NCBI RefSeq assembly: GCF_019613795.1
Contig: NZ_CP080429.1
Coordinates: forward strand, 2,096,501-2,160,500
Origin: Flavobacterium litorale
Lineage (GTDB): Bacteria; Bacteroidota; Bacteroidia; Flavobacteriales; Flavobacteriaceae
Direction of reading: 5' to 3'
DNA length: 64,000 nt
The translations under genes and the position numbers were made by a program. The notes under the pieces are model-generated. The model saw only the letters and a list, made by a program, of their open reading frames with translations. It ran no database searches and was not told where the DNA came from. Of the stretch, positions 17,026-31,168 are shown one piece after another; the first letter of the stretch is position 1, and each line of letters starts with the position of its first letter.

Positions 17026-17778
17026 CTAGTACTTACCGCTAAGCAAAGCACCGCCCATAGGTATTTTAGTATGTAAGTTTAGCTTTTTTAACATCTCATA
17101 TGTAGTACAAACCGCAGCAGAGGTTACTGGTATGCCAATTTCTTTTTCTATGGCATCTATAGCTTCTAACGATGGCATTTGTACACAGGCAGAAGCTACC
17201 AGTACATCTACGCCTTCCAAATTTAATCTTTTATAGATATCAAGCAAATTCATCGGGTTTTGCGCTGCTACTTCCAAATTATCAGGTATTTCCAATGCTA
17301 TGGAGTCAACCACTTCAAAACCCTGATGTTCTATATAATCAACCACCAATTGCGTAAGCGGTTTCATGTAGGGTGTAATAACCGCTACTTTTTTAGCGCC
17401 TAAAACATCCAGTCCGTTAATTAAGGCACCTGCACTGGTTACAATAGGGGCAGGGGCATCGTTTTTAACGGTTTGTTCGTACAAATTGGTTTCTGACACA
17501 CAGTGGTAACCGCGCCCCATGCTCATAATAGCTACTAGGCAGGCATAGCCCATCACATCTACCTGTGCGTCAGATAATTCTAAAGCACACTTTAGGCTTT
17601 CGGCATCCATAGCTTCCAATTCTTCTTTAGTTACCTTTTTCATGCGCATTCGGCTCGAATGGAACGTAAACCTCTCAGGCGCTATGGTTTCGCGCGAGCG
17701 GAACAATGCGGGTATCTCCGTTTCCATCGTAATATTGGAGCTGGGTACTATTTGCCCTATTCTGTATTTCTTAGACAT
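17026..17778 (-). CDS. maleate cis-trans isomerase family protein
   Basis: An Asp/Glu-racemase-fold enzyme of 250 residues matching the maleate isomerase (MaiA/NicE) pattern along its whole length. It opens with GQIVPSSNITMETEIPAL and PERFTFHSSRMRMK. The two catalytic cysteines are Cys80 in VMGYACLVAIM and Cys198 in VASACVQMPSLEAI, the spacing found in characterised maleate isomerases. Known enzymes convert maleate to fumarate through a covalent succinyl-cysteine intermediate, without a thiol cofactor. It is the last gene of the catabolic operon, 75 nt downstream of the FAH-family gene. Here it would turn the C4 ring-cleavage product into fumarate. A less likely option is that it isomerises maleylpyruvate directly. 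Confidence 0.9.
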   Translation of the reverse strand: MSKKYRIGQIVPSSNITMETEIPALFRSRETIAPERFTFHSSRMRMKKVTKEELEAMDAESLKCALELSDAQVDVMGYACLVAIMSMGRGYHCVSETNLYEQTVKNDAPAPIVTSAGALINGLDVLGAKKVAVITPYMKPLTQLVVDYIEHQGFEVVDSIALEIPDNLEVAAQNPMNLLDIYKRLNLEGVDVLVASACVQMPSLEAIDAIEKEIGIPVTSAAVCTTYEMLKKLNLHTKIPMGGALLSGKY

Positions 17779-17853
17779 TATAATGCTTATTTGATAATTT
17801 GTTTATTTAATCTATATGTAACCGTGATAACTGCGACTAACTGCAAACCAATA

Positions 17854-18771
17854 CTAAATTTCTTTAGCATCTACTACGGTATTTACAAGCGTACCAATAC
17901 CCTCTACAGTAGCCTCAACTACATCGCCCGGCCACATAAACGCCTGTGGCGTTCTTCCTGCGCCTACACCTGCTGGTGTACCTGTAGCAATAATATCGCC
18001 CGACTCGATAGTAAATACGGTACTTATATCGTTAATTAAATCATTAATGTTGAATAACATAAATTTAGTGTTGGAGTTTTGTCGTTCCTCACCATTCAAT
18101 TTTAGTGAAAGATTCAAATTGTGCGGATCTTCAATTTCGTCCTTGGTAACCAATACAGGTCCCATAGGGGCAAAAGTATCTTGCCCTTTAGATACAATCC
18201 ATTGCCCGGAACGACGACAATCTCTGGCACTTACATCGTTGATAACAGTATAACCGTAAACATAGTCCATAGCTTTATCTTTGGGTACATTTTTACCGTA
18301 TTTACTAATAATTACAGCAAGTTCTACCTCGTAATCTAATTGTTTCGTAAGGTCTTGATTGTGCACAATATTTCCGCCAAGCCCTGTAACGGCTGTAGGT
18401 GGTTTTGAGAAGATAACAGGCTGTTGTGGTAAGTCTTTAGAAGTATCTAACGACCTTGCCGATTCTGCCACGTGCTCGGTGTAGTTTAACCCGATACCGA
18501 TAATGTTTTTGCGTGGTCGGGGTATGGGCGCCATAAGTTTAGCATCAGCTAATAATAGAGAGCATTGCCTTAATTCTTCTGCTGAAGCATCGTTTATTAG
18601 CTTTGTAGCTTTTTCGATGCCTTCATCGCCCATATCGATAAAATCGAGCATGTTATTTGGTAAAGCACTATTTTTTAGTTTACCCAATTGCTCAGCGTTA
18701 ATAACCCTGTCCTCTTTTATAAAACCCAGTTGCGAATCGGTTTCGTTTATTTTATAAGTAACTAATCTCAT
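17854..18771 (-). CDS. fumarylacetoacetate hydrolase family protein (acylpyruvate hydrolase)
   Basis: A C-C bond hydrolase of 305 residues with an N-terminal cap of about 80 residues and the FAH fold after it. Metal ligands are Glu148 and Glu150 in DYEVELAV and Asp179 in INDVSARD. The dyad histidine lies in GLNYTEHVAE. The loop IATGTPAGVGAGR and the segment FSKPPTAV are typical of the family. With the gentisate-type dioxygenase 34 nt upstream, the expected reaction is hydrolysis of maleyl- (or fumaryl-, or maleamyl-) pyruvate to pyruvate and a C4 acid. The maleate isomerase after it favours a cis product. The family is certain; the exact substrate is inferred from the operon. Confidence 0.9.
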   Translation of the reverse strand: MRLVTYKINETDSQLGFIKEDRVINAEQLGKLKNSALPNNMLDFIDMGDEGIEKATKLINDASAEELRQCSLLLADAKLMAPIPRPRKNIIGIGLNYTEHVAESARSLDTSKDLPQQPVIFSKPPTAVTGLGGNIVHNQDLTKQLDYEVELAVIISKYGKNVPKDKAMDYVYGYTVINDVSARDCRRSGQWIVSKGQDTFAPMGPVLVTKDEIEDPHNLNLSLKLNGEERQNSNTKFMLFNINDLINDISTVFTIESGDIIATGTPAGVGAGRTPQAFMWPGDVVEATVEGIGTLVNTVVDAKEI

Positions 18772-18805
18772 TACGTTGTTATATAGTTTTTGTTATTCGT
18801 TGTTT

Positions 18806-19909
18806 TTATTCAATGGTTTGGTGTCCGTCGGGGTGTGCTTTTTCTTGGTATAAGCCTAATGAGGTTATAACGGGTAAATCGTTAAACGAGAACAAGCAGG
18901 CATCTTCAGTATCTGAAAGATTTACGTGTTCGTGATACACCCATGAGGGTACACAGAAAATATCGCGCTCTTTCCAATCGAAACGCTTACCGCCTATAAT
19001 GGAATATCCTTTACCTTTTGCACACTGATATACGAACGACCCTGTATGTTTGTGTGCTTTGGTATGTTCGCCGGCACGCAGTAGTTGCATAGAGGCACCC
19101 ATAGTTTGCATTACATGACCTCCGGTAGCAGGATTGGTGTACTGCATTAAAATACCATCGTAAGGTGAACCTTTGTGTACTTTAGCAGCTTCTAGTAAGG
19201 CAGGATATACTTTTTTCCAAGAATATTTAAACAGGGGAGAGTAAGGCTTATTCCATTCTTGGTCGGCAGGCACAATTCCTACACCACCATAGGCTAATGG
19301 CGAAAAATTTTCTGGTGCAGTAAGTTCTTGGTTACCGTCTAACACAGCATAATCGTTTGCCTCTAAAGCATTAACTAATGGAATATCAAGCCCATCCTGC
19401 CAAATACAGGTTTTGCCATCTTCTGCAACACCATGCTCGTGCCAAGTACTGTTTGGGGTAATTACAAAATCGTTTACCTCAAGCGTTATTCTGTTACCAT
19501 CTACAACGGTATAACCGCCTTCGCCTTCCATAATAAAACGGAGCGCGGCAGCTTTGTGCTTATGTGCTGGTGTACTTTCGCCTGGTTGTGTTACTTGTAT
19601 GCCCGTATATAGCCACCCTACGGCAGCACTTACATCTTTACGCTTATCGTTAACAAGATACACTACGCGCCTGCCTGCTTCTCCCGGTGTTACCAGTTCG
19701 GCTGATTTTAGCACTAAACTTCGTAAATCGTCATATTTCCATAACATGGGTATCGATGACGGACGTGGTTCCCAAGGTTCAATATCGTTGGCAACCTTCC
19801 ATAATGCTCCTGCACCTAAACTGTCCAGTTTTTTATAATAAGCTTCTAGTTCTGGGGTGTCCTGCACTCTGGCGCGACCGTATGCGGTATCGTCGTGTTT
19901 TGTTTCCAT
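18806..19909 (-). CDS. gentisate 1,2-dioxygenase-like bicupin ring-cleavage dioxygenase
   Basis: A 367-residue bicupin. The N-terminal cupin has Fe(II) ligands His116 and His118 (TPAHKHKAAALRF) and His157 (STWHEHG). The C-terminal cupin keeps a similar set: His286 and His288 in KAHKHTGSF and His326 in WVYHEHVN. The family opens extradiol-type rings between C1 (carboxylate) and C2 of gentisate and related 2-substituted 5-hydroxybenzoates, giving maleylpyruvate from gentisate. Salicylate and 1-hydroxy-2-naphthoate dioxygenases share the fold, so the substrate is not fixed by sequence alone. It lies between the nitrilase and FAH-family genes with gaps of 31 and 34 nt. Confidence 0.9.
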   Translation of the reverse strand: METKHDDTAYGRARVQDTPELEAYYKKLDSLGAGALWKVANDIEPWEPRPSSIPMLWKYDDLRSLVLKSAELVTPGEAGRRVVYLVNDKRKDVSAAVGWLYTGIQVTQPGESTPAHKHKAAALRFIMEGEGGYTVVDGNRITLEVNDFVITPNSTWHEHGVAEDGKTCIWQDGLDIPLVNALEANDYAVLDGNQELTAPENFSPLAYGGVGIVPADQEWNKPYSPLFKYSWKKVYPALLEAAKVHKGSPYDGILMQYTNPATGGHVMQTMGASMQLLRAGEHTKAHKHTGSFVYQCAKGKGYSIIGGKRFDWKERDIFCVPSWVYHEHVNLSDTEDACLFSFNDLPVITSLGLYQEKAHPDGHQTIE

Positions 19910-19940
19910 ACTAGTTCGTTTTTGGTAGTTAGTACTATTT

Positions 19941-20921
19941 TTATATTTCTTCAGATGCGTTGTTATCTGTAAAAGTAATGTTTTTCTTGGGAGCCGTATT
20001 TACCCTTAAATCGAAAATATCAAAGCGGTTGTAATGCCCTAATATATCGTGCATTTGCTTTGGTTGTATACACTTTGATAAATCGATATCGGCATATACA
20101 ATACCTTCTTCGTCAATAAGTGGCTCGCCTATGGTAGCCCCGTTAGGACCCAAAAAACCAGTAAAGGCACTATTTTTACGAGTAAGCAATTCTTCTGCAT
20201 TCGGTACATCCTCTTTCATTACATCTATAATCTCTTTGGTAATTGTAGAACATGATACTATAGTAAATAATTTTCCCTCAAACGAGTGTGCTGCCGCCCG
20301 TATTTTTATTGCCTCTGCCATGTTGTAATCGGGTGGGGCAACGGGTAACGATATATAATTGGCTATATGGATTAGCTCGCCCTGTGTAAGCAAGGTATAA
20401 CGGGCTAATGTATTGGTGTTTTCGCCACAGGCTAATGTGCCTATCGGACCAATTTCGGTATTATACACTTTAAGTGATGAACCATCGCCACCCGTCCAAG
20501 TTAACTTTTCTGCCCAAGTAGGTACTAATTTTCGGTGTTTACCAATTAAGTTTCCTTTGTTATCTATAATTAAATTGGTATTGTAGAGTTCGCCCATACT
20601 TTGTCCGCGCTCGTTTACACCAATTACCACATGGCAATTATGTTCTTTAGCAGCTTCGCAAAGTCTGTCCGTTTCAGGACCAGGTACCGTAATTGAGTTT
20701 ATATATAACTTTTCGTACCATTTGCTACCTTGTACGGGCGTCATAATCCAGTTCCAGTAAGGATAGCCTGCTACAAACACCTCAGGGAAGGCAACTAACG
20801 AAGCACCGTTATTAGCTGCTTCGGCTATTATAGCACACGATTTTTCTACTGTGGCATCTACGTCCAGAAAAACTGAGGAAGCCTGTACAGCAGCCGCTTT
20901 AAATTTTGGTAAATCTAACAT
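19941..20921 (-). CDS. nitrilase family carbon-nitrogen hydrolase
   Basis: A 326-residue enzyme with the nitrilase-superfamily catalytic set: Glu47 in AFPEVFVAGYPYW, Lys131 in GKHRKLVPTWAEK and Cys165 in GTLACGENTN. The CGENTN form of the cysteine motif belongs to the true nitrilase branch, whose members convert nitriles to acids and ammonia and sometimes release amides. Its place between thioesterase and ring-cleavage genes is unusual. Two roles fit the operon: producing the aromatic acid from a nitrile, or hydrolysing an amide such as maleamate after cleavage of an amino-substituted ring. Neither can be decided from sequence. The 95-nt gap before it contains a perfect palindrome (20948-20964). 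Confidence 0.88.
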   Translation of the reverse strand: MLDLPKFKAAAVQASSVFLDVDATVEKSCAIIAEAANNGASLVAFPEVFVAGYPYWNWIMTPVQGSKWYEKLYINSITVPGPETDRLCEAAKEHNCHVVIGVNERGQSMGELYNTNLIIDNKGNLIGKHRKLVPTWAEKLTWTGGDGSSLKVYNTEIGPIGTLACGENTNTLARYTLLTQGELIHIANYISLPVAPPDYNMAEAIKIRAAAHSFEGKLFTIVSCSTITKEIIDVMKEDVPNAEELLTRKNSAFTGFLGPNGATIGEPLIDEEGIVYADIDLSKCIQPKQMHDILGHYNRFDIFDLRVNTAPKKNITFTDNNASEEI

Positions 20922-20947
20922 TATAGTGTAGTTATAAATTTTGAACT

Positions 20948-20964
20948 AAGAATTTTAAATTCTT
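20948..20964. repeat. perfect palindrome inside the catabolic operon
   Basis: Two 8-nt arms (20948-20955 and 20957-20964) around a single T, all A/T apart from one G-C pair, in the 95-nt gap between the thioesterase and nitrilase genes. It could be a regulator site for an internal promoter or an RNA hairpin. There is no T-run typical of a terminator. Confidence 0.35.
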
Positions 20965-21016
20965 GAGCTTATGATTAATATTCTTACTTGGTATGCAAAC
21001 TGCAATGGAATACTGT

Positions 21017-21445
21017 TTACTCGTTTACTATATATTTTTTAAGTATTGTTCGCATAGCATCAGGAAAACTACTTGCTTTTATACCTTTTCTATCGTCCAG
21101 AAATTCCACTCGAACTAAGGTTACTTCGCCCTCAAGGCAAACAGAGCCATCTTCGTGCTCAAATTTAAATCCGCAATGCATAGAGGAGCCTCCAAGGTTT
21201 TTAATCCAAAGGTATTTCGTTAATTCATCGCCCAACCGTGCTGCTTTTTTAAACTGCACTTTTAAATCTACTGTTGGAATGCCACCTGTTTCGTGCAGGT
21301 TTTTAAAGGGCATATCTAAAGCTTCGGCATAAAAATCCTCTACCAAATTGTTCAGCATTTCTAAAAAGCGGGGATAAAAAACAATCCCTGCATAATCTAC
21401 GTGCTGAAAGCGTACACTTTCTTTTTTTATAAATGCGTTTTCCAT
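21017..21445 (-). CDS. acyl-CoA thioesterase (4-hydroxybenzoyl-CoA thioesterase family)
   Basis: A hotdog-fold thioesterase of 142 residues. The active-site pattern is VRFQHVDYAGIVFYPRFLEM, with Asp17 as the catalytic acid of the 4HBT group. Its start codon shares a base with the stop of the CoA ligase (TAATG), so the two are translated together. In this operon it would release the hydroxylated aromatic acid (gentisate, or 5-hydroxyanthranilate) from its CoA thioester before ring cleavage. A housekeeping YbgC role is unlikely given its position. Confidence 0.88.
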   Translation of the reverse strand: MENAFIKKESVRFQHVDYAGIVFYPRFLEMLNNLVEDFYAEALDMPFKNLHETGGIPTVDLKVQFKKAARLGDELTKYLWIKNLGGSSMHCGFKFEHEDGSVCLEGEVTLVRVEFLDDRKGIKASSFPDAMRTILKKYIVNE

Positions 21446-23061
21446 TACGCTTGTGCTGTATTTTTAAGTTTAAATCGTTGTATTTTTCCTGTTTCTGTTT
21501 TTGGTAGTGCATCTAAATAGCACACTTTACGCGGATATTTGTACGGTGCTGCCGATGCCTTAAACCAGTCTTGTATCTCTTTAGTAAAACTATCGCTAGC
21601 TTTACTCTTGTCTTTCAGTACAATGTGCGCGCATACTAGCATTCCTCTGTCTTCGTCGGGTATGCCTGTTACAGCACACTCTTCAACAGCATCGTGCATC
21701 AGTAATACATTTTCTACCTCAATGGCTGAGATGTTATAGCCTGACGAAATAATCATATCATCGCCACGTGCTACAAACCAGTAATATCCATCTTCATCTT
21801 TACGAAAAACATCACCCGTAATATTCCAGCCGTTTTCTACATATTTTTGTTGTCGTTCTTCGTTTGCCAAGTATTTACAGCCTGTAATACCGCGTACGGC
21901 TAAACGTCCTTCTTCTCCAACGGGGGCGTTGTTACCTTGCGCATCTACAATCTTGGCTTCGTAACCTCGAATGGGTAGCCCTGTAGCACCTTTGCGCATG
22001 GTATCCTCGTTAGACGAAATAAAGATATGCAATAGTTCTGTAGCACCAATGCCGTCGATGATTTTTAACCCTGTGGCATTATACCAATCATCCCAAACTT
22101 TTTCGGGCAACGTTTCGCCAGCCGATACGCATTTACGAAGCGATGCTATGTTGTAGTCGGCTACTTTAGTGGTTAATATGCGCCACGCTGTAGGGGCTGT
22201 AAAACAAATTGTGATTTTATAGTCTTGTATGGCTTTAAGCATATCGTCGGCAGACGGTTTTTCCATTAAAAAACTCGATGCTCCGTAATAAAACGGAAAT
22301 AATACTAATCCGCCTAAACCGAAAGTGAAACCCAATGGTGGGCTGCCAATAAACACATCTTTGGCGTTTGGTTGCAAGGAATATTTAGGGAAAGCCTCGC
22401 ATATGGCTAACATATCTTTATGATAATGCGCCGTCATTTTTGGTTTGCCTGTAGTACCTGATGTAAAGCCAATAATTGCAACCGAATCGGATTTTGCAGG
22501 ATAATTTTTAAAAGTAGTTGGTTTGTTTACTATTAATGTTTCTAATTTTTTAGGATTTTTCTCTGTACCATCAAACGAAACAATGTGTTTTAAGTACGAT
22601 GATTTTACAGCTAAGAGTTCATCCTCCAGCCTGTAATCACAAAACGCATGCGATATTTTAGCATTGTCTGCTATTACGGTAAGTTCTTTTTCACGGAGCA
22701 AGGGCATAGTAGCTACCGCAATGCCACCCGCTTTTAAGATACCAAACCAACACGCCACATACATAAGGTTATTTGCCGAACGAATTAATACACGGTTGCC
22801 CGAAACAAAACTTAAATCATCCACAAGTACATTTGCTATTTGGTTGGCTTTTTCGTATAAATCGTTATATGTCCAAGTACTATCAAATGTTTGCATGGCT
22901 ATTGCATTGCCATTACCTTCCTTAATGTGTCTGTCAAGCAGATATTCAACACAATTTAAGTTTTCTGCAAACTCAAAATCACTGTTCCCAGTTATATAAT
23001 TAGGCTGTAAATCCAATGGCGGGAGGTTATCGTGTGCAAAGTTATCGTCGTAATGTTTCAT
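21445..23061 (-). CDS. benzoate/2-aminobenzoate-CoA ligase family enzyme
   Basis: An ANL-superfamily aryl-CoA synthetase of 538 residues. The ATP-binding P-loop is IIGFTSGTTGKPKM (about residues 196-209). The A5-type segment is DGIGATELLHIFIS, the hinge segment RGDDMIISSGYNISAIEVE, and the catalytic lysine is Lys526 in PKTETGKIQRF. The segment IGSPPLGFTFGLGGLVLFPF is typical of benzoate- and 2-aminobenzoate-CoA ligases rather than MenE or fatty-acid ligases. It would activate the starting aromatic acid as its CoA thioester. The gene follows the TPR gene after a 15-nt gap. Salicylate and anthranilate are both plausible substrates. Confidence 0.88.
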   Translation of the reverse strand: MKHYDDNFAHDNLPPLDLQPNYITGNSDFEFAENLNCVEYLLDRHIKEGNGNAIAMQTFDSTWTYNDLYEKANQIANVLVDDLSFVSGNRVLIRSANNLMYVACWFGILKAGGIAVATMPLLREKELTVIADNAKISHAFCDYRLEDELLAVKSSYLKHIVSFDGTEKNPKKLETLIVNKPTTFKNYPAKSDSVAIIGFTSGTTGKPKMTAHYHKDMLAICEAFPKYSLQPNAKDVFIGSPPLGFTFGLGGLVLFPFYYGASSFLMEKPSADDMLKAIQDYKITICFTAPTAWRILTTKVADYNIASLRKCVSAGETLPEKVWDDWYNATGLKIIDGIGATELLHIFISSNEDTMRKGATGLPIRGYEAKIVDAQGNNAPVGEEGRLAVRGITGCKYLANEERQQKYVENGWNITGDVFRKDEDGYYWFVARGDDMIISSGYNISAIEVENVLLMHDAVEECAVTGIPDEDRGMLVCAHIVLKDKSKASDSFTKEIQDWFKASAAPYKYPRKVCYLDALPKTETGKIQRFKLKNTAQA

Positions 23062-23076
23062 AGTTCTACGATATTT

Positions 23077-24027
23077 TTATTTGAGTAATTGGCTGATGAG
23101 TGAGTTTTCTAATACTTTAACCATTTTATCCATTTCTTCGTCTAGGTCATGTGAGTACGCATTTGGTGGCATTGCAACTTCTATCTCTCTGCCCAAAAAT
23201 GTTATTACATACGGAGGGAAACCTTTTTTACTTTTGCATCTTAAAGTTTTTTTAGCTGTCGCAAACATTTCTTTCGCATTCTCGCTACCATATTCTTTTT
23301 CAATAGTATTGGCTGTTAATTTTACGAGTTTTTCATTGTCCGCGAATCCAGATGGGAAAACATGAGGTAGAAGATAATCTAATGCTTTTTTGTTATTGCC
23401 TAATGCTATATAGTTTTTGGCATATAGTTGTGCCATATATATATCGTTTTCTGCATAAGCGTTGCCGCAAAAATGATAGTATGGATATTTTTCAGTTAGT
23501 TTTAAATATTTTATCGCTTCATTGTAATTTTCAGATTCGTGTGCTATATAGGCTAATCTTAGGCAAGCCCTGTTTTTGTAATTTGCATAAGCTTCTCCCG
23601 TAAGACCATCTTCGTTGTATGGTCCATTATCGCTGGCATCACTTTTTAATATCTCAATAAAAGTATCTTTTGCAGCATCATATTCTAGCTCGTATTCAAT
23701 TTCAGCTTTATTATTTAATGCCATAAAATAAAGCTTGGACTCAGGGTAATTCTCAATAAGTTCGTCAAAATATTCAAGTGCTTGCTCTAGTATTTTTTCT
23801 TTGAGTTTTGCCGATGACTCCAGTATAAATTTGCGACTTATCTTTAAACTATCAACTTCTTTATTTTTGCTGTGTATTTTGAGTTTGTGGTGATAAGCTT
23901 CGTAAGACGCTTCATAAAAACCAATACCCTTGTAAAATAGTGCGGTATCTTCATTACCATTTGGCTCATCTTGTGCATTACAGGTGAGCGATATAATTAA
24001 TCCAAATAGTAAATATACTTTTTTCAT
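23077..24027 (-). CDS. secreted TPR-repeat protein of unknown function
   Basis: A 316-residue protein with an export signal (MKKVYLLFGLIISLTCNAQ) that could also be read as a lipoprotein signal at Cys16. Helical TPR-like repeats follow, seen as ALEYFDELIENYPESKLYF, NYNEAIKYLKLTEKYP and GNNKKALDYLL. The C-terminal region contains YVITFLGREIEVAMPPN and has no recognised domain. It lies between the hydroxylase (7 nt upstream) and the CoA ligase (15 nt downstream), so it is part of the operon by spacing, yet it is exported while its neighbours are cytoplasmic enzymes. A link to substrate uptake or an unrelated insertion are both possible. Confidence 0.8.
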   Translation of the reverse strand: MKKVYLLFGLIISLTCNAQDEPNGNEDTALFYKGIGFYEASYEAYHHKLKIHSKNKEVDSLKISRKFILESSAKLKEKILEQALEYFDELIENYPESKLYFMALNNKAEIEYELEYDAAKDTFIEILKSDASDNGPYNEDGLTGEAYANYKNRACLRLAYIAHESENYNEAIKYLKLTEKYPYYHFCGNAYAENDIYMAQLYAKNYIALGNNKKALDYLLPHVFPSGFADNEKLVKLTANTIEKEYGSENAKEMFATAKKTLRCKSKKGFPPYVITFLGREIEVAMPPNAYSHDLDEEMDKMVKVLENSLISQLLK

Positions 24028-24034
24028 AGCATTG

Positions 24035-26347
24035 CTACTTTTTATGCGTTAATGGCTTTAATGCTTTTTTCATATTTTCCATAGTACGGCGTTGCCCTGC
24101 TATATAAGGGTAAAAGTGTGGTACTGCCGACATATACGGTTTGGGTATGCCGAGTTCTTCAATATTATTCGCCTTATATTTTTCGTAGGCTTGTGCATTG
24201 CGTACAAAATAGGGGTCGAGCAATAAAGTTTTGCCCAGAGCTACTAAATCAGCACGCCCATTTAGTAATATGGTGTTAATTTGGTCGATATCCTGAATAT
24301 ACCCTGCCGTAATGGTAGGTACATTCGCTTCATTACGAACCATATCCGAGAATGGTGTTTGCCACATCCTGCCAATAGCGGGTTTTTCGTGTGCTACGGT
24401 TAACCCTGTAGAAACGTTTATAATATCGGCACCTGCCTCTTTAAATGCGGTTGCAATAGCCAGTACATCGTCTTCGGTAATGCCATTTTCTGCCCAGTCG
24501 GATGCCGAAATACGTACCGACATTGGTTTTTCTTGCGGGAATGCCTCACGCATAGCCTTAAATACGCGTAATGGGAATTTTAAACGGTTTTGGATGCTTC
24601 CGCCGAATTCATCTGTACGAATATTGGTAAGTGGCGATAGGAAAGAGGCTAATAAAAATCCGTGATGTGCCTGTAGCTCAATCATATCAAAACCTGCTTT
24701 GTTGGCATTTTTTGTAGCATTAACAAACTCGGTGGTTATGGTATCCATATCGGCTATCGTCATCTCCTTAGGCGTACCCATTTTTTCGCTAAACGGAATT
24801 GGTGAAGCCGAAATTAATTCCCACGGATTATTAATAGCTTCGTTTTTATAATCCCAATAATATTGCATAGCTCCTTTACGCCCCGAATGCCCTATCTGAA
24901 TACCTATTTTAGCGGTACTGTTTTGATGCACAAAATTAACAACACGTTTCCATGCAAGAGTTTGTTTTTTAGACCATATACCCGCACAACCTAAAGTAAT
25001 TCTACCAGTAAGCGATATGGCTGCAGCTTCGGTTAAAATTAATCCTAAACCACCTGTAGCACGCGACCCGTAGTGCATTAAGTGCCAATCGTTCACCACG
25101 CCTTCCTCAGCCGAGTATTGCTCCATCGGGCTCATCACAATACGGTTATCAAGCTCCATTTGTCGCAACTTGTAAGGGGTAAATGCAGCAGGTGTATGTA
25201 AGTTGTTATTCCCTTCTTTTTTATTAAAAGCTTCCAGTACTTTTTGCGTGAATGAAGCATCGCGTAAGCCTAAATTTTCAAACGTTACTTTTTTAGCACG
25301 CGTCATGGTGCTAAAGGCAAATTTCATAAAATCGTGTTGCATGTGCCTGTCCATATGCTCAAACCAATCGAGCGATACGTTGGCAGCGTGCTGTATCATT
25401 TCTACACGGTTACGGCGCAGTTTTTCGTAATTCTCAAAAACAGCGGGTATATTGTTGGTGTGTTTTATAACCGAATCGGCAAGTGCAATGGCACATTCCA
25501 TAGCCAGCTTAGTACCCGACCCGATAGAGTAGTGGGCTGTTGCTTTGGCATCGCCCAGTAATACAATGTTGTCTTTATGCCATTTTTTATTGGTAATGGC
25601 AGGGAATTGCCTCCAATGCGAACGGTTAGATATTAAACCATGCCCGTCCAACTCTTCTTTAAATAGTTCGGATAGTTTGGCAATGGTAGCCGCTTCATCA
25701 GTAACATCAAAACCTGCTTTTTGCCAAGTTGCATCGGTAGTTTCAAATATCCAGGTACTCATGCCTTCCTCATATTGGTACGTATGGGCTACAAAGGTAC
25801 CGTAAGGCGTACTTCTAAAAAAGTAGGTAAAGGCATCCAGCGGTCGGGTAGAACCCATCCACACAAATCGGTTGCTCTTCATTTCGACTTCTGTACCAAA
25901 GTCTTCAGTAAACTGCTCGCGTATACCGCTGTTAATACCATCGGCAGCCACTATAATATCAGCATCGGAGAATTGTGAAAGGTCGGTAACATTGGCTTCA
26001 AAATGCAGGGTAACGCCTACATCGCGGCAGCGTTGTTGTAATAACTGTAGTAGTGTTTTACGCGAACAACCACAAAAACCGTTACCTGTTATACGCACTT
26101 TTTCGCCATCGCGTGCTACATCAAGCTCGTCCCAATAGGCAAATTCACTCCTAATAAGGTCGTATGAATCAGGGTCGCGGGTAAGGAATTCACTTAAGGT
26201 TTCATCAGAGAATACAACGCCAAAACCAAAGGAGTCGTCGGCTTTGTTACGTTCGTACACGCTTATATCATACTCTGGCTTTGCCTTTTTTAAAAGTATC
26301 GAAAAATATAAACCTCCAGGACCTCCGCCTATTACTCTTATTTTCAT
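24035..26347 (-). CDS. bifunctional salicylyl-CoA 5-hydroxylase / 2-aminobenzoyl-CoA monooxygenase-reductase type
   Basis: A 770-residue two-domain flavoenzyme. Residues 1-370 are a group A FAD monooxygenase: GGGPGGLYF (7-15), the DG motif in AADGINSGIR (134-143) and the second FAD motif LLGDAKATAHYSIGSG (264-278). Residues from about 389 on are an Old Yellow Enzyme-like FMN domain with IQIGHSGRKG (483-492) and AHHGFLLASFLSPLTN with FGGSIQNR. This is the architecture of 2-aminobenzoyl-CoA monooxygenase/reductase, and many proteins annotated as salicylyl-CoA 5-hydroxylase share it. The expected job is 5-hydroxylation of the CoA thioester made by the ligase. Whether the OYE domain also reduces the ring here is unclear, since a ring-cleavage dioxygenase follows. 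Confidence 0.87.
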   Translation of the reverse strand: MKIRVIGGGPGGLYFSILLKKAKPEYDISVYERNKADDSFGFGVVFSDETLSEFLTRDPDSYDLIRSEFAYWDELDVARDGEKVRITGNGFCGCSRKTLLQLLQQRCRDVGVTLHFEANVTDLSQFSDADIIVAADGINSGIREQFTEDFGTEVEMKSNRFVWMGSTRPLDAFTYFFRSTPYGTFVAHTYQYEEGMSTWIFETTDATWQKAGFDVTDEAATIAKLSELFKEELDGHGLISNRSHWRQFPAITNKKWHKDNIVLLGDAKATAHYSIGSGTKLAMECAIALADSVIKHTNNIPAVFENYEKLRRNRVEMIQHAANVSLDWFEHMDRHMQHDFMKFAFSTMTRAKKVTFENLGLRDASFTQKVLEAFNKKEGNNNLHTPAAFTPYKLRQMELDNRIVMSPMEQYSAEEGVVNDWHLMHYGSRATGGLGLILTEAAAISLTGRITLGCAGIWSKKQTLAWKRVVNFVHQNSTAKIGIQIGHSGRKGAMQYYWDYKNEAINNPWELISASPIPFSEKMGTPKEMTIADMDTITTEFVNATKNANKAGFDMIELQAHHGFLLASFLSPLTNIRTDEFGGSIQNRLKFPLRVFKAMREAFPQEKPMSVRISASDWAENGITEDDVLAIATAFKEAGADIINVSTGLTVAHEKPAIGRMWQTPFSDMVRNEANVPTITAGYIQDIDQINTILLNGRADLVALGKTLLLDPYFVRNAQAYEKYKANNIEELGIPKPYMSAVPHFYPYIAGQRRTMENMKKALKPLTHKK

Positions 26348-26351
26348 TGTG

Positions 26352-26960
26352 TTATATTGGTCTTTTTATTGAAAAAATTTCGCCTAACCCTGCGTAGTTA
26401 GAGCCTGCTAGGCGTGCCACAGGCTTGTAAACGTCTAAATTTATTCTAAGATTATCCGAAAGTATTGCATCATCTATATGAAACATGACAATGCGCCCTA
26501 TCATTACCGTTGCACCACCATTTTTATGATCTTCTAAGCTATAATGGTGTACGAGTTCGCACTCAAAACTTACGGGGCTTTCTTTTACGCGTGGTGGTTG
26601 TACTAAAACCGATGGCTCGGGTGTAAGCCCTGCATAGTCAAATTCGCTCTCGTTAGGAGGTAAATTTGCTGATGTATTGTTCATCGCTTTTACCAACTCC
26701 ATGGTAGCAAGATTAACCACAAACTGCTTGGTAGCTAATATGTTGTTGAGTGTATCTTTATTTTTATTGCCAGTACGTACCGTAGAGAACATAATATGTG
26801 GCGGATCTTCGCCTACCGCATTAAAAAATGAGAAGGGTGCAAGGTTGGTTGTACCGTCTTTGCTAATGCTCGAAACCCAACCTATAGGACGTGGAATTAT
26901 GGTGCCTGTAAGTAATTTGTAAACGTCTTTCTGACTGGCTTTGGATGGGTCGAGTTGCAT
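26352..26960 (-). CDS. flavin reductase-like FMN-binding split-barrel protein
   Basis: A 202-residue protein of the flavin reductase (DIM6/NTAB) family, first gene of the catabolic operon. It starts with DVYKLLTGTIIPRPIGWVSSI, followed by TNLAPFSFFNAVGEDPPHIMFS and LATKQFVVNLATMELVKAMN, the usual FMN-binding pattern. It ends 4 nt before the hydroxylase start. Such proteins reduce FMN with NAD(P)H or act as FMN oxidoreductases. Its position suggests it serves the hydroxylase, but group A monooxygenases normally reduce their own FAD, so the OYE domain or another reaction may be the client. Confidence 0.85.
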   Translation of the reverse strand: MQLDPSKASQKDVYKLLTGTIIPRPIGWVSSISKDGTTNLAPFSFFNAVGEDPPHIMFSTVRTGNKNKDTLNNILATKQFVVNLATMELVKAMNNTSANLPPNESEFDYAGLTPEPSVLVQPPRVKESPVSFECELVHHYSLEDHKNGGATVMIGRIVMFHIDDAILSDNLRINLDVYKPVARLAGSNYAGLGEIFSIKRPI

Positions 26961-27070
26961 GGGTAATGTTGTTTATTACAAATAAAAGAAATTTTATCAG
27001 GTATAATTTAATTTATCGACAACTAAATTACATTTTTTTAAATTTTATGTAAATAAAGTTACAAATACTG

Positions 27071-27295
27071 TAGAACGCGGATAACACAGGTTAGGCGGAT
27101 GAACGCAAATTTTTGTTTTGAACTGTCATTGCGAGTGCAGCGTAGCGAAACGTGGCAATCTATTTTATTAATTTTTTATTATAATAATTACAAATGGAAC
27201 ACGAATAACATGAATTGGGCAGATGAGCTCAGGTTTTTGCTTTGGACTGTCATTGCGAGTGGAGGGTAGTGGAATGCAGCAATTTATTTTTTAAT
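27071..27295. repeat. two diverged tandem copies of a TGTCATTGCGAG intergenic repeat
   Basis: Two copies about 124 nt apart share the same order of blocks: a 'GGATAACA/CGAATAACA' block, a 'GGCGGATGA/GGGCAGATGA' block, 'TTTTTG(T/C)TTTG', then TGTCATTGCGAGTG. The cores carry short terminal inverted repeats ATTGC...GCAAT (27128-27159 and 27252-27283). The core resembles the widely dispersed GTCATTGCGAG...GCAATC repeats of bacterial intergenic DNA. They fill most of the 448-nt gap between the catabolic operon and uvrB. No gene is seen in that gap apart from the small frame at 27354. Confidence 0.7.
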
Positions 27296-27353
27296 TAATC
27301 TCTTTTTTTTAGGGTTAGATTTTTCTGATTAACTAATAGGCGAAACAAAATTT

Positions 27354-27434
27354 ATGAAAAAAATAATGCTCAAAAGTATTCTCACGGTATGTATATATTT
27401 TCCATTTATTATATTTTACCTTGCAATTCCTTAA
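27354..27434 (+). CDS. possible 26-aa hydrophobic peptide or gene remnant
   Basis: An ATG frame encoding a basic start followed by a hydrophobic run (MKKIMLKSILTVCIYF, ending in IIFYLAIP). It looks like a signal peptide or single membrane helix with nothing after it. Its last 26 nt overlap the 3' end of uvrB in antisense. It may be a remnant of a gene lost next to the repeats, or chance. Confidence 0.2.
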   Translation: MKKIMLKSILTVCIYFPFIIFYLAIP

Positions 27435-29394
27435 TATCATCCCTCAACTTAGCGGCTTGTAAAAAATCTAAATCTTTGGCTGCTTTTTCCATTGCTTTAC
27501 GTTTTTCACGTATTAATTTCTCAATGTCGCCTTTTGCCATATAGGTCGTATCGGGTTCGGCAGCGTGTTTTGGAGCTTCTTCGGTAGCATACGTAATACT
27601 GTTTTTACCTAACGAGTTCTCTATTTTTTTGTTTAGTGCTGTGGGGGTTATGTTATTGGCTGTATTATAATTGTGTTGTTTTTCGCGCCTGTAAGTAGTT
27701 TCGTCTATGGTGCGCTGCATGCTATCGGTAATTTTATCGGCGTACATTATGGCTTTACCGTTTACATTACGGGCGGCACGCCCTACGGTTTGGGTTAACG
27801 AGCGCGTACTACGCAAAAAACCTTCCTTATCAGCATCCAATATGGCTACTAACGATACTTCGGGTAAATCCAACCCCTCGCGTAATAGGTTAACGCCAAT
27901 AAGTACATCAAACAGCCCTTTGCGTAAATCTTGCATTATTTCTACGCGCTCAATCGTATCTATATCACTATGGATGTAACGGCAGCGTATGGCTACTTTG
28001 GTTAGGTATTTGGCAAGCTCTTCTGCCATACGTTTGGTTAGTGTGGTTACTAACACACGTTCGTCTAGTTCTACACGCTGCTGTATTTCTTCAATAAGGT
28101 CGTCTATCTGGTTTAGGCTTGGGCGTACTTCAATTACGGGGTCGAGTAAGCCTGTAGGGCGTATTACTTGCTCTACATATACGCCATCGCTTTTTTGCAA
28201 CTCATAATCGGCGGGGGTAGCACTTACAAATACTACCTGATTTTGCATGGCTTCGAATTCCTCAAACTTTAAAGGGCGGTTATCCATAGCAGCAGGCAGG
28301 CGGAAGCCATATTCTACTAAATTCTCTTTACGCGAGCGGTCGCCACCATACATGGCGTGTACTTGGCTAATGGTTACGTGGCTTTCGTCGATAACCATTA
28401 AATAATCGTCAGGGAAATAATCGAGTAAACAGAACGGTCGTGTACCAGGTTGCCTTCTGTCCAGATAGCGCGAGTAATTCTCGATACCCGAGCAGTAGCC
28501 TAGCTCGCGTATCATTTCGAGGTCGAAATTGGTACGCTCTTCCAGTCGTTTTGCTTCGAGGTGTTTGCCTATTTCTTTAAAATAATCTACCTGCTTCACT
28601 AAGTCTTGTTGTATTTCCCATATCGCTCCCTGTAGTACATCGGGGCTGGTTACAAACATATTGGCAGGGTAAATATTCAATTTTTCATATTTCTCTATTA
28701 CCTGCGCTGTTTTGGCATTAAATGCTTCTATTTCTTCAATTTCATCACCAAAAAAGTGAATTCGGAACGGATCATCGGCATAACTTGGGAATACCTCAAC
28801 GGTATCGCCCTTGATGCGGAATGTACCTGGTAGAAATTCGGCTTCGGTACGCGAATATAAACTTTGTACTAAACGGTGCAGTAGTTTGGTACGACTAATT
28901 ACTTGGTTGCGTTCTATAGAAACTACGTTTTTCTGAAATTCTACGGGGTTACCAATACCGTACAAACAGGATACTGAGGCTACTACTAGTACATCCCGAC
29001 GCCCTGAGAGTAGAGAAGAGGTGGTACTAAGGCGCATTTTCTCTAGTTCATCATTTATAGAGAGGTCTTTTTCTATGTACAATCCGCTTACGGGTATATA
29101 GGCTTCGGGTTGGTAATAATCGTAGTAGGATACAAAGTATTCTACGGCATTATCAGGAAAAAATTGCTTGAATTCGCTGTATAATTGTGCTGCTAGTGTT
29201 TTGTTATGTGCTAGTACTAGGGTTGGTTTTTCTACTTTTTCTATAACATTTGCCATAGTAAAGGTTTTACCCGAACCTGTAACGCCTAAAAGGGTTTGGA
29301 ATTTTTCGTTAGCGTTAATGCCATCACTAAGTTGTTTAATAGCAGCAGGCTGGTCGCCCGTTGGTTTATAATCAGATACTACTTTGAATTTCAT
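27409..29394 (-). CDS. uvrB: excinuclease ABC subunit UvrB
   Basis: The damage-verification helicase of nucleotide excision repair, 661 residues. Walker A is LLGVTGSGKTFTM near residue 36. The beta-hairpin region lies around FVSYYDYYQPEAYIP, followed by SSLLSGRRDVLVVASVSCLYG. Motif VI-type sequence is TQTVGRAARNVNGKA. The C-terminal UVR domain that contacts UvrC is EKAAKDLDFLQAAKLRDD. The length is normal. It works with UvrA and UvrC, neither of which is in the window. It stands alone, with repeats on its downstream side. Confidence 0.97.
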   Translation of the reverse strand: MKFKVVSDYKPTGDQPAAIKQLSDGINANEKFQTLLGVTGSGKTFTMANVIEKVEKPTLVLAHNKTLAAQLYSEFKQFFPDNAVEYFVSYYDYYQPEAYIPVSGLYIEKDLSINDELEKMRLSTTSSLLSGRRDVLVVASVSCLYGIGNPVEFQKNVVSIERNQVISRTKLLHRLVQSLYSRTEAEFLPGTFRIKGDTVEVFPSYADDPFRIHFFGDEIEEIEAFNAKTAQVIEKYEKLNIYPANMFVTSPDVLQGAIWEIQQDLVKQVDYFKEIGKHLEAKRLEERTNFDLEMIRELGYCSGIENYSRYLDRRQPGTRPFCLLDYFPDDYLMVIDESHVTISQVHAMYGGDRSRKENLVEYGFRLPAAMDNRPLKFEEFEAMQNQVVFVSATPADYELQKSDGVYVEQVIRPTGLLDPVIEVRPSLNQIDDLIEEIQQRVELDERVLVTTLTKRMAEELAKYLTKVAIRCRYIHSDIDTIERVEIMQDLRKGLFDVLIGVNLLREGLDLPEVSLVAILDADKEGFLRSTRSLTQTVGRAARNVNGKAIMYADKITDSMQRTIDETTYRREKQHNYNTANNITPTALNKKIENSLGKNSITYATEEAPKHAAEPDTTYMAKGDIEKLIREKRKAMEKAAKDLDFLQAAKLRDDIKELQGKI

Positions 29395-29415
29395 GTTGCA
29401 GTTTGTGCTTTTCTA

Positions 29416-29423
29416 CAAATATA
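29416..29423 (-). promoter_or_regulatory. candidate -7 element for uvrB
   Basis: Minus-strand TATATTTG, an exact TAnnTTTG match ending 21 nt upstream of the uvrB ATG (29394). The -33 region has no clear TTG at normal spacing. Confidence 0.4.
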
Positions 29424-29491
29424 ACGAATAGTTTAGCGCGTAGTAATAGCTGTAGTATAACAGTTTGCGAATACTTTATTGTAAAAGAAAA

Positions 29492-30154
29492 TTAATCGAA
29501 ACATTCCATAAGTAACAAATCTCCTTCACGATGCTCTATGGTTACAATACCATCGTTTAACGCCTCATTGCTACTACCTGTACGGTACCCTAAGGTTAAC
29601 GCCTCGTTAGTGAGCGGGTATTTGAGGTTTCGGGTTGTAATACCTTTTGCTGTACCTACTGGTATTAACGAAAGTGGAGTAGTAGCGGTATACCATTTGT
29701 TGAACTTTTGCGGGAGTTGGAAAATTTTGCTATGGTCGTCCAACAACACAATTTTTAATTTTTCACGATATCCTACAATGGTAGTTATATTGGTTATAGT
29801 ATGGTCGGCACGCTTGCCTGTAGCCCAAATAACATTTACTGCAGGAAATCCGCGATTTATAAGGTAATCAAATGCTTTTTCGAGGTCTGTTTTATTTTGG
29901 TCGGGCGTATGTACTATTTCTAGCGGATATTGTAATTCGCGGTAGGCTTCAGGGTCGAAATTACGGTCGAAATCACCCAGTAGTACATCTACTTTAATGC
30001 CTAAATCGACTACGCGTTGTATGGCACTGTCTAAAACAATAACCAATGGTGACCATTCTAATAACTGATCCATGAGGTTTTTACTGCACGCTGCACCGTT
30101 GGCTATTATTAATGCAGGCTCTTGGTCGTCGCGTACTATATGGTGGGATGACAT
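29492..30154 (-). CDS. thiamine pyrophosphokinase
   Basis: A 220-residue thiamin diphosphokinase that transfers pyrophosphate from ATP to thiamine to make the cofactor used, for example, by MenD. Diagnostic segments are VLLGDFDRNFDPEAY, HTPDQNKTDLEKAFDYL and WATGKRADHTITNI. The N-terminal domain begins PALIIANGAAC. The C-terminal beta-domain contains SLIPVGTAKGITTRNLKYPL. The length agrees with the family. It stands alone between uvrB and a DUF4249 gene, separated from the latter by a hairpin. Confidence 0.93.
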   Translation of the reverse strand: MSSHHIVRDDQEPALIIANGAACSKNLMDQLLEWSPLVIVLDSAIQRVVDLGIKVDVLLGDFDRNFDPEAYRELQYPLEIVHTPDQNKTDLEKAFDYLINRGFPAVNVIWATGKRADHTITNITTIVGYREKLKIVLLDDHSKIFQLPQKFNKWYTATTPLSLIPVGTAKGITTRNLKYPLTNEALTLGYRTGSSNEALNDGIVTIEHREGDLLLMECFD

Positions 30155-30205
30155 AATTATATAGTTTATGTAAAAATAATATAAATAAAAATTTATATAC
30201 TATAA

Positions 30206-30235
30206 CGGCTATTACCAATTTATTGATAATAGCCG
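30206..30235 (-). terminator. hairpin, probable terminator of the DUF4249/TonB-receptor operon
   Basis: Arms of 9 nt (30206-30214 and 30227-30235) pair perfectly, and CAAT/ATTG extends the stem inside after one mismatch. It lies 35 nt past the DUF4249 stop. A T-rich run follows only after a few bases on the minus strand, so termination is likely but not certain. Confidence 0.45.
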
Positions 30236-30269
30236 CATATTGCTAAAAAGGTATTTGAAATAGTTCTCT

Positions 30270-31100
30270 TTATTGAATAATATATTCTACATAATCTACT
30301 TCTGAAAGCTGAAAATAGCCAAAAGGATTGTTGTTTTCATTAGTCTCATTTATAAGGTTTCCACGAATGGGGGCGGGTGTTGTTTGAAATGGTCCGCTAC
30401 CTGCTCCTCCTTCTATCATAGTAATAACGAGTTCCATATAGTTATAATATCTTCTAGATATTCCTGATAGTTTAATGTTTAAATCATCTCCGCTCTTTAT
30501 GTTATCGTCTATATATAGTACAGACATTAAATTACCATTACTAAACTCATCATCTAATGCTGTATATTCGGGATAAGGAATTGCATTGGTACTGAACTTT
30601 GATAAGTAATAATTTTCTGCTGTTGGGTCATCTTGAAAAAAGGCTTCAATTTCTATAGCATCTCCAGAAAAGCCACTGTCATCTTTTTGAGTTATATTCT
30701 CAATACTAGACACAGGGTACATTTTTTCGGTAGCTGTATATGTTTCATTATTATAAATAATAGTAAGCTCAAAATTATTACCTATAATTGGCTCAAAATT
30801 AGTACATATATATTCTCCTGTACCTGGTACTGTTTCAATAAAGTCAAATACAGATCCGTTATCAGTGTTAGTAATAAAAGCCGTAGCACCTGAAACGGTT
30901 GGTACTGTTTCTTCGTAATATCCTGTAGAAGTTGTAAGTTTTATAACTTGTTCGTTACCAGGTGTACCTTTAACCCAATCTATAGAGGCATCTATTACAA
31001 GCTTGGGATCTTCGGTATCTAAATCAAGATTTACTACTTCTTCACACGAAATGAAGAGTATAGTAGTCGCAAATAATAAGATAAATTTAATATTTTTCAT
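30270..31100 (-). CDS. DUF4249 family lipoprotein
   Basis: A 276-residue surface-type lipoprotein with lipobox ILFISC (Cys19), then EEVVNLDLDTEDPKLVIDASI, the typical DUF4249 opening. The body is beta-rich with extracellular-lipoprotein character. DUF4249 proteins usually lie directly downstream of a TonB-dependent receptor with a carboxypeptidase-like N-terminal domain, as here (68 nt gap). They are probably the receptor's outer-membrane partner in taking up an unknown ligand. Confidence 0.88.
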   Translation of the reverse strand: MKNIKFILLFATTILFISCEEVVNLDLDTEDPKLVIDASIDWVKGTPGNEQVIKLTTSTGYYEETVPTVSGATAFITNTDNGSVFDFIETVPGTGEYICTNFEPIIGNNFELTIIYNNETYTATEKMYPVSSIENITQKDDSGFSGDAIEIEAFFQDDPTAENYYLSKFSTNAIPYPEYTALDDEFSNGNLMSVLYIDDNIKSGDDLNIKLSGISRRYYNYMELVITMIEGGAGSGPFQTTPAPIRGNLINETNENNNPFGYFQLSEVDYVEYIIQ

Positions 31101-31168
31101 AATTATATATTTAAAATCCTTTTTGTTCGATTTTTTATAATATTCAATCGAATAAGACGGGATATTAT

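Follow-up and report, generated by a model that had tools for sequence, protein, structure and literature searches.

A stretch of 64,000 nucleotides of the Flavobacterium litorale genome, which is a single contig of 2.73 Mb (NCBI RefSeq assembly GCF_019613795.1, contig NZ_CP080429.1, positions 2,096,501 to 2,160,500; hereafter the window), contains nine genes that run in one direction on the minus strand, from 26960 to 17026 (Table 1). Their products were assigned to families by Pfam and NCBIfam profile searches. Judged from their sequences, these genes probably encode an aerobic catabolism of anthranilate, which arises when tryptophan or indole is broken down; the route passes through 5-hydroxyanthranilate, opens the ring with the nitrogen still attached and ends at fumarate. 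A preliminary description of the locus had named genes that were all found again on this strand, with the same positions and families. Its range, 17026 to 26347, left out the conserved flavin reductase gene and took in the gene of a TPR-like protein, located between the ligase and hydroxylase genes, for which tblastn at 1e-10 gave no match in 80 related loci. The nine genes without the latter are referred to as the eight-gene unit.

Table 1. Genes of the operon, listed in the direction of reading (positions in the window).
Product and proposed role	Positions	Strand	Match
Flavin reductase family protein; heads the unit	26352..26960	-	PF01613, 89 bits
Fusion of a flavin adenine dinucleotide (FAD) monooxygenase and an old yellow enzyme (OYE)-type reductase, 770 amino acids; proposed 2-aminobenzoyl-coenzyme A (CoA) 5-monooxygenase	24035..26347	-	NF006101, 989.5 bits
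TPR-like protein, outside the conserved unit	23077..24027	-	weak TPR_14 match
Adenosine monophosphate (AMP)-forming aryl-CoA ligase; proposed anthranilate-CoA ligase	21445..23061	-	PDB 4wv3, 307 bits
4HBT (hotdog) thioesterase; proposed 5-hydroxyanthraniloyl-CoA thioesterase	21017..21445	-	PF13279, 47 bits
Nitrilase-family enzyme (CN_hydrolase, CGENTN); proposed maleamate amidase	19941..20921	-	PF00795, 140 bits
Bicupin gentisate-type dioxygenase; proposed 5-hydroxyanthranilate 1,2-dioxygenase	18806..19909	-	TIGR02272, 297.5 bits; PDB 3bu7, 537 bits
FAH-family acylpyruvate hydrolase; proposed maleamyl-/maleylpyruvate hydrolase	17854..18771	-	PF01557, 237 bits
Maleate cis-trans isomerase (arylmalonate-decarboxylase/Asp-Glu-racemase type)	17026..17778	-	PDB 4fq7, 342 bits

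Related loci were sought with the nitrilase-family protein alone, the best 80 of 285 being kept (mostly labelled Flavobacterium or Flavobacteriaceae), and the partner genes were then located by tblastn. All eight genes are present in 66 of the 80 loci, with identical order and strand in each of these 66, so the grouping is not due to chance. The gaps in the remaining 14 are all on a side on which the contig stops less than 5 kb from the nitrilase gene. The thioesterase was found in 80/80 relatives and the flavin reductase, which heads the conserved order, in 72, the others being cut by contig ends. Its retention in this conserved unit ties the nitrilase to the pathway, though it would have no step in a route from salicylate to gentisate.

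A close nitrilase ortholog is found in 87 of 199 Flavobacterium genomes. A scan of the family with the nitrilase at 1e-60 matched 13 of 249 genomes, the close matches being only the source genome itself and G135, a genome of another genus of the same family (65% identity). The dioxygenase was found in 6 of 395 genomes in a scan of the phylum, all from one genus. Three gene distributions were discarded as evidence on the substrate: kynureninase is encoded by 190 of the 199 Flavobacterium genomes (86 of the 87 that carry the module), 3-hydroxyanthranilate dioxygenase (3-HAO) by 172 of the 199, and tryptophan dioxygenase by 200 of the 249 genomes of the family, all too common to be informative. 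The F. litorale genome encodes kynureninase; searches in it for isatin hydrolase and the oxidoreductase discussed below were empty, a weak result since they were run without a positive control. An open reading frame of about 139 codons recurs in 26 of the 80 relatives, near the operon start in the example at positions 4299-4718 (minus strand) of locus L069. By eye its product looks like a zinc-ribbon/helix-turn-helix protein of the InsA kind, possibly a regulator or an insertion-sequence remnant.

The nitrilase, dioxygenase, FAH and isomerase genes also form a block outside Flavobacterium. Among 72,556 plasmid records, nine matched the nitrilase at 60% identity or more, while the dioxygenase had 12 matches of at least 60% and five more of 57-60%. 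Eight of the nine nitrilase records (a second Leisingera record was left out) together with G135 make up nine outside loci: Ruegeria pomeroyi, Caballeronia, Sagittula, Shinella (two plasmids), Sulfitobacter, Leisingera, the actinomycete Embleya and G135. They cover Alphaproteobacteria, Betaproteobacteria, an actinomycete and another flavobacterial genus, the proteobacterial and actinobacterial gene context being that of plasmid records only. The four genes are adjacent in 9/9 of these loci, in the order nitrilase-dioxygenase-FAH-isomerase in seven and dioxygenase-FAH-nitrilase-isomerase in two. Pairwise distances of the four proteins correlate among 11 members (Spearman 0.70-0.86), as expected for a block that moves as one. 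Wherever the contig reaches, in the 80 relatives as in the nine outside loci, the nitrilase gene is linked to the other three.

The genes around the block are most informative in loci that show no close ligase. No match to the ligase was found in seven of the nine outside loci, and the acyl-CoA ligases of Shinella plasmid 2 and Sulfitobacter are only 25% identical to that of the window. Both subunits of a 2-oxoacid (indolepyruvate-type) ferredoxin oxidoreductase are encoded in six of the nine, and a cyclase-family gene of the isatin-hydrolase type in four. The G135 copy of the latter matches solved isatin hydrolases with 368 (5nmp), 324 and 274 bits. The G135 locus encodes a short-chain dehydrogenase/reductase (SDR) and a StyA/StyB-like pair (under the equivalog cut-offs), followed by a hydroxylase 64% identical to that of the window, the isatin hydrolase, both oxidoreductase subunits and a thioesterase. 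These proteins might convert indole via isatin and isatinate (2-aminophenylglyoxylate) to 2-aminobenzoyl-CoA, the thioester that an anthranilate-CoA ligase would also make. Embleya, alone among the nine, has genes for tryptophan 2,3-dioxygenase (TIGR03036, 368.5 bits, cut-off 390.7) and kynureninase (TIGR01814, 248.1 bits, cut-off 246.4) upstream of the block on the same strand, which may supply anthranilate, or 5-hydroxyanthranilate if the precursor is 5-hydroxylated. On the Ruegeria pomeroyi megaplasmid (115948-118856, L083/L133) genes for an aldehyde dehydrogenase and an aminotransferase lead into the nitrilase block; with no adjoining hydroxylase gene, this suggests an amine feedstock such as tryptamine or serotonin.

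Ten plasmid loci with ordinary gentisate dioxygenases 36-42% identical to that of the window served as controls. Their annotation tables, which are incomplete, list no C-N hydrolase or Asp/Glu racemase in any of the ten and a maiA gene in five. By tblastn, nine of the ten gave no match to the nitrilase, isomerase, oxidoreductase, isatin hydrolase, kynureninase or tryptophan dioxygenase. Five further loci form a sister group, with a dioxygenase of the same clade (58-65% identity) and no close nitrilase. Three of them (Novosphingobium, Aminobacter and Tistrella; L086, L087 and L088) encode a different nitrilase-family enzyme with a CWEN motif, followed by a flavin reductase; the Aminobacter and Tistrella enzymes are 72% identical to that of Novosphingobium, and the Tistrella gene lies about 5 kb downstream, beyond transporter genes. 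This second nitrilase-family type near the same dioxygenase clade is counted in favour of the anthranilate route. A lower-scoring counterpart of the oxidoreductase beta subunit (217 bits) is encoded in the Aminobacter locus. The preliminary description had asked whether nitrilase and maleate isomerase always co-occur in such clusters: they do so in the 66 complete relatives and the nine outside loci, while in three of the five sister loci the nitrilase is of another type and comes with no isomerase.

At the level of single proteins, the hydroxylase, dioxygenase and nitrilase all score under the cut-offs of specific NCBIfam models, which marks them as divergent or as separate branches. The hydroxylase is a near miss of the bifunctional salicylyl-CoA 5-hydroxylase/oxidoreductase model NF006101 (match over residues 1-743, cut-off 1078). 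The dioxygenase falls below the gentisate 1,2-dioxygenase (TIGR02272, cut-off 442.1) and 5-aminosalicylate dioxygenase MabB (NF049978, 269.2 bits, cut-off 650) models, and the nitrilase below that of the Nit6803 family (TIGR04048, 244.8 bits, cut-off 502.6).

The dioxygenase is close to the Ruegeria protein of PDB entry 3bu7, which is encoded by the gene in the orthologous Ruegeria block (374 of 374 residues, no difference in the alignment). Residue roles given in the accessible part of PMC10306065 comprise a three-His iron site, Arg and Gln binders of the carboxylate and an Asp on the 5-hydroxyl. R80, Q105, H116, H118, R124, H157, H159 and D172 are conserved in 11 enzymes of the module, five of the sister group and nine ordinary ones, and the window protein thus has the residues of a gentisate-type cupin dioxygenase. 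Conservation of the iron, carboxylate and 5-hydroxyl contacts means that the substrate should be a 5-hydroxylated 2-X-benzoate; from the sequence evidence as a whole, 5-hydroxyanthranilate is the likely substrate of ring cleavage. Module enzymes are on average about 37% identical to the nine ordinary ones. Seventeen positions are invariant in the 11 module enzymes and absent from the nine, for example E158 between the iron ligands and Q171 beside the Asp, and the second cupin has four His in 16/16 members of the clade versus 2/9 ordinary enzymes. The FAH hydrolase finds its best solved match in an unspecific FAH protein (233 bits), with 99 bits to the maleylpyruvate hydrolase 6jvv.

The nitrilase-family enzyme belongs to its superfamily both by the Pfam match and by the columns of E47, K131, E138 and C165, invariant in 16 aligned homologs, which we take to be the catalytic Glu-Lys-Glu-Cys residues. 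CGENTN is present in 93/93 non-redundant sequences of at least 60% identity. Ring opening next to an amino group would leave a carboxamide, and among the enzymes of the unit the C-N hydrolase alone would otherwise have no step; hydrolysis of an amide, maleamate, is therefore the best explanation of the linked nitrilase. There is precedent in the superfamily for action on small omega-amides, in mammalian Nit2. For the isomerase, the next match after the solved maleate cis-trans isomerase 4fq7 is a further solved maleate isomerase with 206 bits, the alignment to 4fq7 matches both conserved Cys regions (YACLVAIMS and SACVQMPS), as expected of a maleate isomerase, and the protein is 66.9% identical to the product of a plasmid gene annotated ndpH maleate isomerase. 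Maleate as an intermediate is thus well supported. No maiA-type isomerase was found by Pfam among the nine operon proteins.

The ligase was said in the preliminary description to resemble 2-aminobenzoyl-CoA enzymes, and its likeness to 2-aminobenzoate ligases is confirmed. Its best solved relative is the anthranilate-CoA ligase 4wv3 (benzoate-CoA ligase, 238 bits), and it is 46% identical (481 bits) to the AMP ligase encoded beside the hydroxylase on plasmid pAL1 of Arthrobacter Rue61a. Because its gene adjoins that of the monooxygenase, the pAL1 protein is taken to be the ligase whose anthranilate-CoA ligase activity was measured, according to the part of PMC3534580 available. On pAL1 (22656-32950, L130) an FAH gene and a single-cupin gene of about 160 codons adjoin the anthranilate ligase and hydroxylase genes, possibly another ring-cleavage variant.

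The OYE half of the hydroxylase bears on the fate of the ring. The His of the motif ELHxAHGY corresponds to H164 of YqjM. In all 79 module-type hydroxylases that show the motif, Gln replaces this His, and the Tyr after it is Phe in 75. The 79 are those of the window, 73 of the 80 relatives, L127, G135, Caballeronia, and Cupriavidus and Novosphingobium of the sister group; the contig of L055 ends before the dioxygenase, and the incomplete L022 hydroxylase, without the motif, stands outside the count. The His is kept in four other hydroxylases (the second Ruegeria cluster, Paracoccus, G766 and Arthrobacter pAL1), and the first three lie near genes for enoyl-CoA hydratase and acyl-CoA dehydrogenase. 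It is also carried by 119 of the 120 nearest homologs of the second Ruegeria copy, taken regardless of gene context, the last being without the motif. An OYE His and beta-oxidation neighbours, traits drawn from these four loci, would mark a dearomatising 2-aminobenzoyl-CoA monooxygenase/reductase; the window hydroxylase has Gln for His and no beta-oxidation genes in its unit. The ring is probably not reduced, since Gln stands where ring-reducing relatives have His. The simplest reading of the sequence is that the reductase half has been silenced or retuned and the ring kept aromatic for cleavage. The second Ruegeria pomeroyi cluster (442520-464709, L132) is of the beta-oxidation type, with genes for tryptophan 2,3-dioxygenase, enoyl-CoA hydratase, acyl-CoA dehydrogenase, an AMP ligase, RidA and a small cupin.

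The route proposed starts with the ligase, which from its relatives would convert anthranilate and CoA to 2-aminobenzoyl-CoA. The FAD half of the fusion would hydroxylate C5 of the probably unreduced ring, and the thioesterase would release 5-hydroxyanthranilate. The bicupin dioxygenase, whose conserved residues support a site for a 5-hydroxy-2-X-benzoate, would cut between C1 and C2 and turn the amino-bearing C2 into a carboxamide, giving maleamylpyruvate. The FAH enzyme would split this into pyruvate and maleamate. On the strength of linkage and chemistry, the nitrilase-family enzyme would then hydrolyse the amide with release of ammonia, although it could act one step earlier, and the isomerase, well supported by homology, would convert maleate to fumarate. 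A nitrogen-bearing substrate that gives every enzyme a step had been put forward in the preliminary description. It finds support in the nitrilase and isomerase genes that are linked to the dioxygenase gene, in the isatin-hydrolase/oxidoreductase or tryptophan-dioxygenase/kynureninase genes of loci where no close ligase was seen, and in the lack of nitrilase, isomerase and anthranilate-source genes in ordinary gentisate loci.

Several observations weigh against this route. The nitrilase is by sequence a nitrilase proper (NitA 229 bits versus 49 bits for the best amidase-type match), a weak point that the preliminary description had itself recognized. CGENTN had to be given up as a marker of maleamate activity, as two homologs outside the clusters (Polaromonas and Salinigranum) share it. 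The Ruegeria 3bu7 protein was deposited as a gentisate 1,2-dioxygenase, and it reportedly acts on gentisate. The contact residues were likewise rejected as a test between gentisate and 5-hydroxyanthranilate, since module enzymes share them with ordinary ones; one contact position is Tyr or Phe in either group. No maleate isomerase was found in the five sister loci, and no CN hydrolase in the stretches of two of them, Cupriavidus (where insertion sequences follow) and Sulfitobacter alexandrii. A hydroxylase lies in the fetched stretch of only two of the nine outside loci, Caballeronia and G135, so in the other seven the 5-hydroxyl group must come from elsewhere. The 49-kb Embleya stretch has no match to hydroxylase or ligase, and no anthranilate marker was found near the block in Leisingera and Shinella plasmid 1. 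The pAL1 hydroxylase keeps its His despite adjoining small cupin, FAH and thioesterase genes, an exception showing that the presence or absence of ring cleavage does not by itself account for His or Gln. Benzoate may also be a substrate of such ligases, as the accessible portion of PMC3534580 has it, and a 5-nitrosalicylate dioxygenase of the wider class is described in the part of PMC10306065 at hand as inactive on 5-hydroxyanthranilate.

Three alternatives have to be considered. The first, nested in the proposed pathway, changes the order of its late steps, the nitrilase-family enzyme deamidating maleamylpyruvate before the FAH cut; gene order does not decide the matter, given the seven and two outside arrangements, and relatives of the FAH enzyme include maleylpyruvate hydrolase, but this order is considered unlikely. 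It is still less probable that deamination comes before the ring is opened, 5-hydroxyanthranilate becoming gentisate and the nitrilase doing something else. Gentisate was reported as an intermediate by Cain in 1968 and by Claus and Kutzner in 1983 (as cited in PMC4539516 and PMC6221969), and the dioxygenase residues fit it; against this, none of the unit's proteins is of a family known for aryl-amine deaminases, and the linked nitrilase is left with no step. The poorest candidate, and a very improbable one, is a Streptomyces sdg-like route from salicylate through salicylyl-CoA, gentisyl-CoA, gentisate, maleylpyruvate and maleate to fumarate, in which the nitrilase would supply the aromatic acid by hydrolysing a nitrile, for example 2-hydroxybenzonitrile. 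The NCBIfam name of the hydroxylase family, the name of the Ruegeria dioxygenase and the nitrilase character of the CN hydrolase speak for it. Against it, orthologous clusters encode isatin hydrolase, 2-oxoacid:ferredoxin oxidoreductase, kynureninase and tryptophan dioxygenase, which a salicylate route does not need; outside loci that have lost the ligase (none in 7/9, a 25%-identical one in 2/9) still carry the nitrilase with the ring-cleavage genes; and the ordinary gentisate loci examined have no CN hydrolase.

The anthranilate route proposed for the window combines parts of several known systems, in what would be a new assembly of known enzyme families with two proposed activities. In the lower pathway of nicotinate and nicotine degradation maleamate is converted to maleate and fumarate (NicF/NicE). 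The window shares with it a close relative (67%) of the annotated ndpH isomerase and, in the proposed route, maleamate; to our knowledge the known maleamate amidohydrolases are isochorismatase-like, while here a nitrilase-family enzyme would be used instead. With the gentisate pathway, starting from 3-hydroxybenzoate or salicylate, it shares a gentisate-type cupin dioxygenase and an FAH hydrolase, to which it adds the nitrilase-family enzyme and the maleate isomerase, with no maiA-type isomerase in the unit. The 2-aminobenzoyl-CoA monooxygenase/reductase pathway of Azoarcus evansii and Arthrobacter Rue61a uses, like the window, the CoA ligase and FAD/OYE fusion families, but reduces the ring and leads to beta-oxidation, whereas the window unit has no beta-oxidation genes and instead a thioesterase, a ring-cleaving dioxygenase and Gln in the OYE motif. 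In the Azoarcus-type enzyme hydroxylation is followed by reduction of the ring, and 5-hydroxyanthraniloyl-CoA is reported under NADH limitation, according to the part of PMC3534580 available. The iad and isatin routes from indole-3-acetate end at anthranilate in the accessible parts of PMC9613470 and PMC12633357; oxidoreductase and isatin-hydrolase-type genes of those kinds adjoin the orthologous module, and none was found in the window.

The known routes of anthranilate breakdown, as listed in the available part of PMC4539516, proceed via catechol, 3-hydroxyanthranilate, 2-aminobenzoyl-CoA or 5-hydroxyanthranilate and gentisate. The last was proposed by Cain in 1968 for Nocardia opaca (as cited in PMC4539516), and gentisate was also given as an intermediate for Alcaligenes In3. 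The preliminary description, which called the route undescribed, is to be qualified for the stretch from anthranilate to 5-hydroxyanthranilate; no description of ring cleavage with the nitrogen attached or of maleamate was found in a literature search that covered few subscription journals. A 2018 review states, in the part accessible, that the enzyme from anthranilate to gentisate is unreported and its gene unrevealed (PMC6221969).

A broader reading, possible though on balance doubtful, takes the block of nitrilase, dioxygenase, FAH and maleate isomerase as a mobile, general sink for 5-hydroxyanthranilate that is the missing basis of the old "gentisate" reports; under that same joint reading it would bring two new activities, a cleavage that opens the ring of an ortho-amino phenolic acid to an amide and the hydrolysis of maleamate by an enzyme of nitrilase fold. 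Also under this reading, hydroxylase-less loci such as Ruegeria and Embleya could use a feedstock already hydroxylated: serotonin, 5-hydroxyindoleacetate or 5-hydroxytryptophan. How anthranilate is turned into "gentisate" has been a question ever since it was reported in 1968 and 1983, and the operon offers orthologous genes in which it can be tested, from a block seen in three bacterial phyla. If the anthranilate route is true, it would add an amide-making reaction to ring cleavage and give the nitrilase branch a new job, and a dioxygenase of known structure (3bu7) would have to be assigned another natural substrate. The breakdown of indole, auxin and tryptophan would moreover be joined to the release of ammonia through one movable block of genes.

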